Shown: positions 47,843-52,172, counted from the stretch's first letter. The stretch is 64,000 nucleotides of DNA from an uncultured Alphaproteobacteria bacterium (GCA_944390195.1 CALXOZ010000003.1:124001-188000); one strand, 5' to 3'. Notes: a model not told the origin generated them from the letters alone. Numbers and translations are program-made.

Positions 47843-49378
47843 ATGGTTTCTACGAGTCAAAAAGACAGTTACTTAAAAAAATTTGAAGCCGATTCCGAAA
47901 TGGAACGGCAAAAAATCATTGATTTGGAACGTGCTCAGGCACGCTCGGTTTCCCGTCCGATAAAAAAGGATGGTCGTTTTGCAAAGATAGAGGGGCGTTA
48001 TATACGTCCCGAAGAACTTGAAAAAGAAGTTGAAAAATTAAATTTTGCAAAACAGGAGGCGGCAAAAAAAAGAAGGGGTTTTTTTGCGCGGTTGTTTGAT
48101 AAAGATGAAACGCAAGCAGAGGACGTTTCTGATAAAGAAGAGAATTTAAAAATAAAAAAAGCGCCGAAGAAAGAAATTTCCGATAAACTGAAAAATAAAG
48201 TGGCTAAAATCCAAAAATTGCGAGGGATTTCTGATGCGGATCAAATTCATACGGATATAGGGCAAAACGAGGCGAGTTTAACAGGGAACGATCTTTTTTG
48301 GGCAAAGCGTTTCTTTTCAAAAGCATCGGAGTCGGAAACAGATCCATCGCAAAAATTGAAATCGTTTGACCGGTTGATAGAAAAAACTTCGGAAACATTG
48401 CAAAGCGTTTATTCCCGATCCGGACGTGCGAGCCGACCCGATCAATCGGCTTCGGGGATTATGCAGGAAACTTACGACCAATCCGGATACACCGGTCAGC
48501 CTCGTCAATCCGCTTCAGGGATTATGCGGGAAACCTATGCCCAATCCGGACGTGCGAGCCGACCCGATCAATCGGCTTCGGGGATTATGCAGGAAACTTA
48601 CGACCAATCCGGACAGGATATTCCCGAAAATACAGAAAAACAATTTTCAGATTTATCTCGTGATCTTGAAGCTGCGAAAACTTTGTTCGCTCCTGTGCAG
48701 ACCGGAGAAAAGGAAGGGCTTATTGCGTCCGCCTTGTCCGTTGCGGTCGGTTTCATCTATTTTGAGGAAACAGGGGATATTGTTGACCGGATTATAACAA
48801 TACGCCGCCTTTTTTCCAAAGGTGGAGACATCTTGATCGACGCTTTTTGCCATGATATTTCCATGCCGCGTGTGATCGCTTTTTCCAAAGGAATCCGTCT
48901 GTACAACCTTAGAACAATGTCAGCATATGAAAATCCTCGCGATTTTTTATTATATCAATTAGCGGGAATATCGGGGACAAAGCAAAAAGACAGCTCCGGA
49001 TTTGCCGATGCCCTGTCCGTTGTCCGTTATGATTTGGCAGCTTTGGCCTTTGCCGCGGGATCCGATTTTAATAAAAGCCATCAAGAAAATGATCTGTTGT
49101 TAGCCTATGTGACACAACGTTGCCCGACTATATGTTTTGACGAAAAGGAAATGTTGAATTATATTACAATGCTGGTTCCTGATGAACAAAGCTTTTTCGA
49201 GGCAATAGAAATTATTGTAAAACAGCCGCAGGAGATCGTTTATTTGTTTGTACATACATTTTTGCAGCTGTTGCTTTCCGATGGTGTTTTACATCAAAAT
49301 GAACGTGAATTGTTGGCAGAATTGTTGTATCTGTTAAAAATAGAAGGTATAGATTTAGGTCGCCTTGGTCTGGAATAG
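47843..49378 (+). CDS. TerB-like protein with tandem 21-aa repeats
   Basis: The 511-residue product has no signal or membrane helix. Residues 1-190 are highly charged (SRPIKKDGRFAKIEGRYIRP; GFFARLFDKDE). Residues 193-255 are three 21-residue repeats (QSASGIM core). Residues 285-511 form a helical domain ending in LSDGVLHQNERELLAELLYLLKIEGIDL, which resembles TerB/DjlA-type modules. First gene of an operon with the secreted coiled-coil and MCP-like genes (gaps of 9 and 5 bases). Function unknown; the TerB assignment rests on the C-terminal pattern. Confidence 0.65.
   Translation: MVSTSQKDSYLKKFEADSEMERQKIIDLERAQARSVSRPIKKDGRFAKIEGRYIRPEELEKEVEKLNFAKQEAAKKRRGFFARLFDKDETQAEDVSDKEENLKIKKAPKKEISDKLKNKVAKIQKLRGISDADQIHTDIGQNEASLTGNDLFWAKRFFSKASESETDPSQKLKSFDRLIEKTSETLQSVYSRSGRASRPDQSASGIMQETYDQSGYTGQPRQSASGIMRETYAQSGRASRPDQSASGIMQETYDQSGQDIPENTEKQFSDLSRDLEAAKTLFAPVQTGEKEGLIASALSVAVGFIYFEETGDIVDRIITIRRLFSKGGDILIDAFCHDISMPRVIAFSKGIRLYNLRTMSAYENPRDFLLYQLAGISGTKQKDSSGFADALSVVRYDLAALAFAAGSDFNKSHQENDLLLAYVTQRCPTICFDEKEMLNYITMLVPDEQSFFEAIEIIVKQPQEIVYLFVHTFLQLLLSDGVLHQNERELLAELLYLLKIEGIDLGRLGLE
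48419..48607 (+). repeat. Three tandem 63-bp coding repeats
   Basis: Units at 48419-48481, 48482-48544 and 48545-48607 each encode 21 residues with the core QSASGIM.ETY. Units 1 and 3 are identical base for base; unit 2 differs at many positions. Two identical units separated by a diverged one suggest recent duplication or gene conversion. Confidence 0.95.
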
Positions 49379-49387
49379 GAGAATGTT

Positions 49388-49951
49388 ATGATTAAATTTT
49401 TTTCAATCGTTTTAACAACATGCTTGATTTCTGCTACGTCCGTTTGTGCGCAGGATGCTTTTTCGGAGCAAATGTTGCAAGACGAATTTTTACAAAATAA
49501 TGAAAAAATCAATGAAATATTTCAAGACAAAATCAAAAAAATATCCGCGCGAACCGCTTTGCCCGATGAAATAAAAAAATTGTTGATTTCTCAAGCTGAT
49601 GAAATCCGTCAGTTCGATTTGGAAATGCTTAAGAAAAAAATGGATATGAAGTTGCGTCATGCAAAAGAACGTGATGAAATGAAAGAAACATTACGCAAAG
49701 ACGCTCAAAATCGTGTTAAATGGATGATGGAAGATGAAGCGCGATTCCAAAACAACAAACAAAAACGTCAATCCGATGAAAAAAATATAATCAAAAAAGT
49801 GACTGAAAACAAAAATGCTGTTCAGCCGCAAAAAGCGCCTGTTCCTGTCGTATCGACACAACCTTTGTCTTCTTCCGTTAAAAATGATACTCCGGAAAAC
49901 TCTTTAAAGAAAAGTTCTGACGAACCGATTGAAAACAACGTTCACAATTAA
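49388..49951 (+). CDS. Secreted charged coiled-coil protein
   Basis: A 187-residue protein with a signal peptide (MIKFFSIVLTTCLISATSVCAQ, cleavage after VCA). The mature part is Lys/Glu/Asp/Gln-rich and helical (residues about 25-135), then a Ser/Pro/Val-rich tail. No family is recognised. AGGAGAATGTT precedes the ATG. It sits between the TerB-like and MCP-like genes and may act in the periplasm alongside the sensor of the MCP-like protein. Confidence 0.7.
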   Translation: MIKFFSIVLTTCLISATSVCAQDAFSEQMLQDEFLQNNEKINEIFQDKIKKISARTALPDEIKKLLISQADEIRQFDLEMLKKKMDMKLRHAKERDEMKETLRKDAQNRVKWMMEDEARFQNNKQKRQSDEKNIIKKVTENKNAVQPQKAPVPVVSTQPLSSSVKNDTPENSLKKSSDEPIENNVHN

Positions 49952-49956
49952 GATAA

Positions 49957-52128
49957 ATGGAAAGTAAGAATATGCTGCGTTTTTTGTCAAAATTCAACTT
50001 GGCAACACGTATTTATGCCGGTTTCCTTTTCTTGGGGCTTTATGTCGTCTTGATCTGTTTCGCCGCCATGTTCGCTGTCGGATATGTTCATAATGAATAC
50101 ATGAAAGCGAATAATGTCATTGAAAATACGCGTCAGATTTCAGCATTAGAAACATATTTGTTTTCATTGAACCGTTCTTTGTTTTTTTTCGCTTCAAAAG
50201 GAACTGAAGAAGAAAAAGCAGATGTGGAACGTTCGTTTCAAACATTTAAAGAAAAAAATACGGAAGTCGAAAATTCATTGGTCGTTCCTCAGGTCAAAGA
50301 ACAATTCAATCTTGTTTTATCGGACATTTTAAAAAAGTATGATGTCAATATAACGGAAATGTTTTCTTTGTATGAAAAAAGTGCGGAAGCTGAAAAAAAA
50401 GTTAATAACATTGCCGAAAAAGTTTCTGCTCAAATCAATGACTTGATTGAAGAAACAACTTTGCCGTCAGCTTCTTTCGCTTTGAACTCATTGAAAGAAC
50501 AATTGGAAAACGTCTTACATGCCATTGACAATGTAACACCGGAAAACGAAACAAGTCGAAAACAGCTTGATAATGACTTGAATGCTTTGAAAAAAGCGCA
50601 AAATACAACAAAGCAAGCGGAAATGATTAATGCCAAGCAATTAAAAGATGTTTTCGATTCTTTGAACAGTCTTGATGAAGAAATTAATCGTAAATTGAAA
50701 ATAGATGTCGCTTTGCGTGAAAAAATTCAAGCCGTTTCTTTGTTAAGAGAACAAAATTCAAAAGATTTTAAAGATTTGATTTCTTCCATGGCTCAATCTT
50801 GCACGAATTTGTTGTCACAAGCGGAAGCCGGAAAAATCTCTTTGCAAAAGGCTTTTGTCTTTGCTGCCGCTTTCGGTGGTTTCCTTTCTGTTCTTTTGTC
50901 ATTCTTGTCTTTGTTCGGAATACGATATCCGTTGGCGCGCTTGATTGAAAATGCTCAAGAAATAGCTCGTGGCGATCGTTCCGTTCTGATCCATTTCACA
51001 GAACGTGATGACGAAGTCGGAGCCTTGGCAAAATCTCTTGCTCTGTTGACTTTGCGTTTGAAAGATTTTCCCCTCTGGTCGGATGAAACACTTTTGGGGC
51101 ACAAAAGTTCGACTTATGGATCAACTTCTGCTTATGTACCATTGGGGACACCAAATGCTACAAATGCGGAAAATGAAGAATATAACTCTGATAAGGAAAA
51201 AGAGGGTATTTCAGTAAAAAATGCCGGTGTCGATACTGAAAAACAATTGTGCCAAATGCTTTCTTTTGTTCAAAATATCAGCATTTCAGCTGTAAGCATG
51301 ACCAACTCGATCAAAGAACGTTTTTATATATGTCGTGATCATTTGTTTAATCTGACGGAACAGTTGCAATTGATCGGTAAAAATACGGCAAATGTAAAAG
51401 AACATATTTCAAAAAATTCTTTAAACGACTTGGTGGAACAAATCCAAAAGGTCGTGGATTCTTTTTCAATTTGTTTCTCTTTGACCGATGAAATGCAGGA
51501 ATTGTTGAAAAATCAAATTTCTTCGTCAGATGAAACGGATCTGGAATTGGAAAAAATCAAAAATGCCATTACTGAATTGACACAGTGGGTTAAAGTCGGC
51601 GATGAATTAACAGATGTTATTTGTTCTTCTTCCGCTGAAACGAAAATCTTGGCGTTGAATGCCGCAATTGAAGCCGCAAAAGCCGGTGAAAATGCAAAAG
51701 CTTTCGGTAACGTTGCTTCAGATATGCGTCAAAGAACACAAAAAACGCTTGAAACTGCTCAAAATCTGACAAATCATTTGATGGAGATTCGACAACAAAT
51801 TACTCTTTTTTCTGAAACAACGTCAGCGATTGTTTCACAATTTGATCTCTTTAAGCAAAACATGAGCAGCTTGCTGACAATCAATGATACTCAAACGGAA
51901 CGTATCCGTTCGATTTTTGATTCGGCTCAGGGAGCAAAAGCGGATATGGAAAAAGCCGTTGTTGAAAATGATAGCATTCAACAAGAGTTGGAAAACATTT
52001 CCGGTGTGGTTGTTGCTTCTGAGGAAAGACCGCCTTTATTAGAGACTCAAATTATACAGGTGGAAGAATTGTTAGATGATTTTAAGGCTTCTTTGCCAAG
52101 CTATGAACAGGATGAAGAAGAAGAATGA
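49957..52128 (+). CDS. MCP-like membrane protein with HAMP and signalling domain
   Basis: The 723-residue protein has membrane helices at about 19-45 and 297-320, a large helical extracytoplasmic region between them (about 250 residues), a HAMP-like segment (ARLIENAQEIARGDRS) and a C-terminal signalling coiled coil with a recognisable but divergent hairpin: ILALNAAIEAAKAGENAKAF. The usual follow-on VVA.EVR.LA is replaced by GNVASDMRQRTQK. It ends in an acidic EQDEEEE tail without a CheR-binding pentapeptide. No che genes are nearby, so it may feed another pathway. The internal ATG at 49972 is an alternative start. Confidence 0.82.
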   Translation: MESKNMLRFLSKFNLATRIYAGFLFLGLYVVLICFAAMFAVGYVHNEYMKANNVIENTRQISALETYLFSLNRSLFFFASKGTEEEKADVERSFQTFKEKNTEVENSLVVPQVKEQFNLVLSDILKKYDVNITEMFSLYEKSAEAEKKVNNIAEKVSAQINDLIEETTLPSASFALNSLKEQLENVLHAIDNVTPENETSRKQLDNDLNALKKAQNTTKQAEMINAKQLKDVFDSLNSLDEEINRKLKIDVALREKIQAVSLLREQNSKDFKDLISSMAQSCTNLLSQAEAGKISLQKAFVFAAAFGGFLSVLLSFLSLFGIRYPLARLIENAQEIARGDRSVLIHFTERDDEVGALAKSLALLTLRLKDFPLWSDETLLGHKSSTYGSTSAYVPLGTPNATNAENEEYNSDKEKEGISVKNAGVDTEKQLCQMLSFVQNISISAVSMTNSIKERFYICRDHLFNLTEQLQLIGKNTANVKEHISKNSLNDLVEQIQKVVDSFSICFSLTDEMQELLKNQISSSDETDLELEKIKNAITELTQWVKVGDELTDVICSSSAETKILALNAAIEAAKAGENAKAFGNVASDMRQRTQKTLETAQNLTNHLMEIRQQITLFSETTSAIVSQFDLFKQNMSSLLTINDTQTERIRSIFDSAQGAKADMEKAVVENDSIQQELENISGVVVASEERPPLLETQIIQVEELLDDFKASLPSYEQDEEEE

Positions 52129-52137
52129 AAAAATCAT

Positions 52138-52172
52138 TCAAAGACCGTATCTTTCTGGGTACGGTCTTTTTA
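52138..52172 (+). terminator. Rho-independent terminator of the MCP-like operon
   Basis: A stem AAAGACCGTA / TACGGTCTTT around a TCTTTCTGGG loop with a T-rich tail, about 10 bases after the MCP-like stop. Confidence 0.85.

Follow-up and report, generated by a model that had tools for sequence, protein, structure and literature searches.

A three-gene operon that probably encodes the sole chemoreceptor of a reduced chemosensory system in a flagellated alphaproteobacterial family

The operon described here lies in a 64,000-nucleotide stretch of DNA from an uncultured Alphaproteobacteria bacterium (the window) and appears, with moderate confidence, to encode the sole chemoreceptor of a reduced and rewired chemosensory system, which would probably adjust motility rather than carry out classical adaptive chemotaxis. 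A sequence-only reading had proposed an envelope-sensing device working without the Che system. That proposal finds little support, given that all 12 genomes of the family have a CheA-like protein bearing both HATPase and CheW domains, and given the residues kept at the receptor tip. The operon is better read as the receptor component of a pared-down system derived from Che, in a lineage with flagella, than as an envelope sensor free of Che. Its features are the following.

47843..49378, + strand: gene 1, WYL-like and TerB protein, 511 aa (ORF, Pfam, AlphaFold2, Foldseek)
48410..48613, + strand: repeat, three in-frame copies in the disordered part of gene 1
49388..49951, + strand: gene 2, signal-peptide helical/coiled-coil protein, 187 aa (ORF, orthologues)
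49957..52128, + strand: gene 3, MCP-like receptor, 723 aa (Pfam, alignment, model, Foldseek)
51067..51237, + strand: disordered linker of gene 3, from HAMP to hairpin, aa 371-427 (model)
51630..51731, + strand: receptor tip of gene 3, SSAETKILALNAAIEAAKAGENAKAFGNVASDMR (alignment)
52140..52169, + strand: intrinsic terminator (folding energy against shuffles)

The three genes lie on the same strand, and their coordinates agree with the gaps of 9 and 5 bases described earlier. All relatives begin gene 3 at Met6 in the alignment, and the true start is therefore probably at 49972, leaving a gap to gene 2 of about 20 bases. The clear terminator claimed for the operon also stands, with the hairpin at 52140-52169 folding at -18.1 kcal/mol (z -4.5) and none of 200 shuffles being equally stable; a consensus terminator scan gave no match for it. 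No CtrA box, sought as exact TTAA-N7-TTAA, was found upstream of the three-gene operon or of the chpT-cheA operon considered below.

Conservation was assessed in a set of 12 family genomes, comprising the window's genome and 11 relatives from three genera. These genomes are small (~2 Mb) and gut-associated, belonging to uncultured gut and rumen bacteria. The search for the operon covered 60 other genomes, 11 of them from the same family, and recovered it in 10 of the 11 family relatives, the sole one without a match being G004 (88% complete). Gene order is kept throughout, with short spacing in all relatives but one, whose gaps are 190 and 102 bases. Because the order of the three genes is kept across all three genera, chance is excluded as its cause. 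Wherever a relative's contig covers the whole trio, the genes are linked; in G002 a contig end inside the repetitive tail of gene 2 cuts it, so the linkage there is partial. This conservation bears out the earlier description of a linked unit that reaches from the cytoplasm through the membrane into the periplasm, and no homologues standing singly and unlinked were seen within the family. Of the three genes, only gene 1 has homologues that also occur alone and unlinked in other orders, with no MCP alongside in the stretches read. Two of these homologues lie at L052 6962-7711 and L051 2403-3203, the former adjoining genes that by eye resemble a MoxR/DUF58 cluster. When about 85,000 species genomes were scanned for the gene 1 domain, only 9 loci came back, their records describing MAGs from rumen or faeces (sheep, roe deer, water buffalo, horse) or leaving the host unstated. 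The operon proteins at these loci match those of the family genomes exactly, and the loci therefore add no new independent cases.

Gene 3 consists, in order, of a transmembrane segment, a helical HBM-like periplasmic domain, a second transmembrane segment, HAMP, a disordered linker, a conserved motif (AYFGQGVGVDTESQL in the family consensus) and an MCP hairpin. Both MCPsignal (E 1.2e-12) and HAMP (E 2.4e-6) score above the Pfam cut-off, and the two domains recur in 11/11 family receptors. It is the only MCP in the window's genome, and each relative with the receptor likewise has one MCP match. The predicted structure (pLDDT 77, built from 9 sequences) contains a long hairpin like that of known chemoreceptors, a HAMP region of low confidence, and a linker (aa 371-427) with pLDDT mostly below 50. 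In ordinary receptors HAMP continues straight into the hairpin; the linker, as modelled, would be an unusual departure from this connection. Foldseek, run on the model, relates the periplasmic fold to McpS, TorS and PilJ, with a target-normalised TM of 0.83 over 236 columns at 14% identity for McpS (2yfb), and the predicted sensor is of the bimodular helical HBM type. Pfam gave no HBM match for this domain.

The family alignment of the hairpin reveals a conserved tip, with the motif ETKILALNASIEAAKAGE..K.F, in an otherwise highly divergent domain. A change from Asn to Lys at K563, the position of Tsr N376, is lineage-wide. Residues E572, K575 and F583 are invariant in the family and are the equivalents of Tsr E385, R388 (Arg to Lys) and F396, which form trimer-of-dimers contacts (PMC8144572). 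Since the tip retains these trimer-contact residues, docking onto the CheA-like protein is probably preserved. The C-terminus reads ..EQDEEEE (LPTYEE in the family consensus) and carries no NWETF-like pentapeptide, so that the original picture of an MCP-like protein with a divergent hairpin and no pentapeptide is upheld.

Gene 2, predicted to be periplasmic, comprises a signal peptide, a helical/coiled-coil domain conserved over roughly aa 30-130, and a variable tail. Its orthologues in 10 relatives share 37-62% identity, and a signal peptide is recognisable by eye at the N-terminus in these as well as in the window, consistent with the helical, signal-peptide protein first described. No significant Pfam match was obtained; Spore_III_AB/DUF1104 was rejected, the matches being weak and absent from the relatives scanned.

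Gene 1 lacks a signal peptide, which places it in the cytoplasm, and consists of a disordered, charged N-terminus, a WYL-like beta barrel (~aa 290-360) and a TerB helical domain (aa 399-507). The TerB match reaches 25.4 bits (E 1.8e-5) against a Pfam cut-off of 24.4, and falls below the cut-off in both relatives scanned. The AlphaFold2 model (pLDDT 82) displays six strands followed by seven helices, and Foldseek matches the barrel to the WYL proteins BrxR, PafBC, CapW and DriD with a probability of about 1.00, although the best E is only 3e-3. Pfam detects WYL in one relative only (E 0.05, below cut-off); gene 1 is assigned a WYL/SH3-like barrel on the predicted fold. No DNA-binding domain was found in gene 1. 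Fusions of WYL and TerB are on record, and WYL has been proposed to bind nucleotide-like ligands (PMC4012209). The description of gene 1 as a repeat-bearing TerB-like protein holds for the window, where TerB exceeds its cut-off and the three copies at 63-base (21-aa) spacing are real, but not for the relatives, which have no repeat. The repeat, being private to the window's genome, is therefore a local expansion, and was discarded as a functional hallmark.

The single CheW match in the window's genome falls inside a large CheA-like protein with a long coiled coil, HATPase and tandem CheW-like domains, and total absence of chemotaxis was ruled out when the CheW search turned up this protein. 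The statement that there are no chemotaxis genes is thus correct within the window but not for the genome, which has the CheA-like gene elsewhere. The suggestion that genomes with the operon might lack cheA and cheW fared similarly: the CheW search revealed no separate CheW in the window's genome, but the CheA-like gene is present in 12/12 family genomes, its reading frame open in all. In the window's genome it is split over two contigs, C23 carrying the N-terminus and C26 the remainder, and in all 12 genomes it lies directly 3' of a single-copy chpT, within a few bases. Profile-profile comparison with the CheAs of other orders aligned P1 (probability 98.2, E 4e-14, 119 columns) as well as P3-P4-CheW-CheW (probability 99.8, E 9e-30, 437 columns); judged by these profiles, the CheA-like protein is a descendant of an ordinary CheA.

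At the P1 phospho-His site, 8/8 canonical outgroup CheAs read HTIKG, and the family copies carry K, D, C, D, H, D, D, G, E, S and E. The His is replaced in 10 of the 11 P1-bearing copies (by Lys in the window's genome) and survives only in G004, while the G007 protein has no P1. In P4, the N-box Asn and the G1 Asp are kept in 12/12 and the G2 GRGVGMD (GxGxG) and F-box PGFST motifs are lost. Nucleotide binding may persist and, since the Asn and Asp of the ATP pocket are retained, kinase activity is possible; normal autophosphorylation seems unlikely from these motifs. Values of dN/dS of about 0.1-0.26 where computable, with dS near saturation, show purifying selection.

In several genomes of other orders a chpT-like gene lies near or adjoins cheA, and one of them, G042, has the order chpT-cheA-cheY-cheB-cheR (L102 1404-7781) with an ordinary CheA. 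A chpT beside a che operon therefore looks like the ancestral arrangement, of which the family would have kept chpT-cheA and lost the remainder. The chpT-cheA linkage was accordingly dismissed as a novelty, and is not by itself a sign of a new link. Literature searches turned up nothing relevant on a CheA lacking P1 or on a chemoreceptor with TerB.

Three proteins of the system have repeat expansions within regions that are disordered or coiled-coil, namely the CheA-like protein, gene 2 of G002 and gene 1 of the window (L043 1-3203, L045 1-647 and window 48410-48613). Two of the three sit at contig ends, breaking the assemblies. The protein encoded at the end of C26 carries YVEAPAEGEAAQYE in tandem (L043 15734-17101).

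CheR is absent from 12/12 genomes in a search whose positive control worked, and no CheB-like protein occurs among the receivers read in four genomes. The window's genome gave no Hpt match, with positive controls; ChpT belongs to a different family (PF10090) and keeps its His. CtrA and CckA are present among the receivers read. FlhA is found in 12/12 family genomes, and the flagellar cluster of the window's genome contains, by eye, fliF, fliG, fliN, flbD and flhF/flhG-type genes, ruling out a non-flagellated lineage with a leftover MCP. A CheY-like protein occurs in 11/12 genomes; where read it belongs to the flagellar cluster, and the three proteins read have an intact DD/D/K site. None was found in the genome of the window (98.6% complete). 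Such receivers include G002 L128 1477-1863, G005 L134 and G011 L127, among others, and adjoin DUF6468-like and MotE-like genes where read.

In the proposed mechanism, the HBM-like periplasmic domain, probably partnered by gene 2, would sense an envelope or external cue, and the hairpin tip would bind the CheW domains of the CheA-like protein. The receptor and CheA-like genes are unlinked, and we therefore infer the complex from their one-to-one co-occurrence and from domain logic. Genes 1 and 2 would supply further subunits, roles suggested by their linkage and predicted fold. Gene 1 would act in the cytoplasm, serving the receptor specifically as an adaptor or as a modulator that senses a ligand, and might do so at the linker found in place of an unbroken helix from HAMP to the hairpin. 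Since the CheA-like protein would be unable to autophosphorylate normally, the complex would have to signal in trans or by conformation and localisation. Output in trans would run through a separate histidine protein, for which the co-encoded ChpT is the obvious candidate, to CtrA or to a flagellar CheY-like regulator; alternatively, conformation and localisation alone would carry it. The likeliest effect would be on flagellar motility or on cell-cycle-linked motility development. It is further conceivable, though doubtful, that a receptor array signals through the histidine-less CheA by conformation or via a phosphorylated or regulated ChpT, the chemoreceptor thereby directly controlling the CckA-ChpT-CtrA relay and the WYL-TerB and periplasmic helical proteins serving as new core subunits.

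Several other explanations were weighed against this reduced chemosensory system. We consider it rather unlikely that the CheA-like protein is half of a split kinase, its P4 active and phosphorylating the His of another protein in trans, most likely ChpT, so that the receptor controls CckA-ChpT-CtrA or a CheY-like regulator. Such a kinase is consistent with the unchanged N-box Asn and G1 Asp of all 12 copies and with the loss of the P1 His beside a single-copy, co-encoded ChpT that keeps its own; split CheAs are documented (PMC3591291, PMC6829392), and possible targets exist in CtrA, CckA and the CheY-like protein of 11/12 genomes, with its intact site in the three read. However, the G2 GxGxG and ATP-lid motifs are eroded, ChpT in known species is fed by CckA and needs no second donor, the chpT-cheA order is ancestral, and the CheY-like gene was not found in the window's genome itself.

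That the three proteins alone form an envelope-sensing device independent of any CheA is improbable, since the conserved tip in the divergent hairpin is the part that packs receptors and binds CheA/CheW, and every family genome retains a partner with CheW domains. This must be set against the tight linkage and conservation of a trio whose CheA-like gene lies elsewhere, the high divergence of the hairpin outside the tip, and the disordered linker that interrupts the connection from HAMP. Losses of CheR, the P1 His and kinase motifs in small, gut-associated genomes of ~2 Mb might also suggest a relic, a decaying chemotaxis system without present function, but this is very improbable given a CheA-like frame open in 12/12, an operon found in 11 genomes, low dN/dS, a tip conserved across three genera, and retained flagella.

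Phosphotransfer from the P1 His is considered the core of chemotaxis signalling. In this motile-looking family, receptor and CheA are under selection while the P1 His is nearly always lost and CheR is lost in all. As a reduced, rewired chemosensory system, it would provide a natural test of the receptor-CheA complex without its usual chemistry. With chpT as a neighbour, a connection from chemoreception to the CtrA relay can be tested directly, and the WYL-TerB partner hints at a possible ligand input.

Compared with the canonical alphaproteobacterial Che system (CheA of the form P1-P3-P4-CheW-CheW-REC), the family shares the homologous P1 and kinase/CheW core, the chpT-cheA order (G042), the MCP hairpin tip and flagella. 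It differs in mostly lacking a usable phospho-His, in having lost REC as well as cheY, cheB and cheR from the operon, in the long coiled coil inserted in its CheA-like protein, and in having one receptor only, encoded with WYL-TerB and periplasmic helical proteins. In the split CheA of Rhodobacter sphaeroides, CheA4 phosphorylates CheA3 (PMC3591291, PMC6829392). The likeness is of a CheA with kinase and receptor-binding domains and no phosphorylatable P1; whereas CheA3 provides the P1 there, no Hpt-domain protein was seen in the window's genome, and ChpT is the one His protein nearby. The ancestor of DivL is a PAS histidine kinase rather than a CheA, and DivL has no CheW domains. It is described as a repurposed histidine kinase of Caulobacter (PMC4211667), and to that extent resembles the CheA-like protein as a histidine-kinase descendant reused in alphaproteobacterial signalling. 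HBM receptors (McpS), TorS and PilJ match gene 3 in predicted periplasmic fold; gene 3 has little sequence identity to McpS (14%) and, unlike McpS-type receptors, is accompanied by a dedicated secreted helical protein. Finally, gene 1 has the same domain pair as the known WYL-TerB fusions, whose account (PMC4012209) treats WYL in CRISPR-Cas and other defence contexts, whereas gene 1 is linked to a chemoreceptor.
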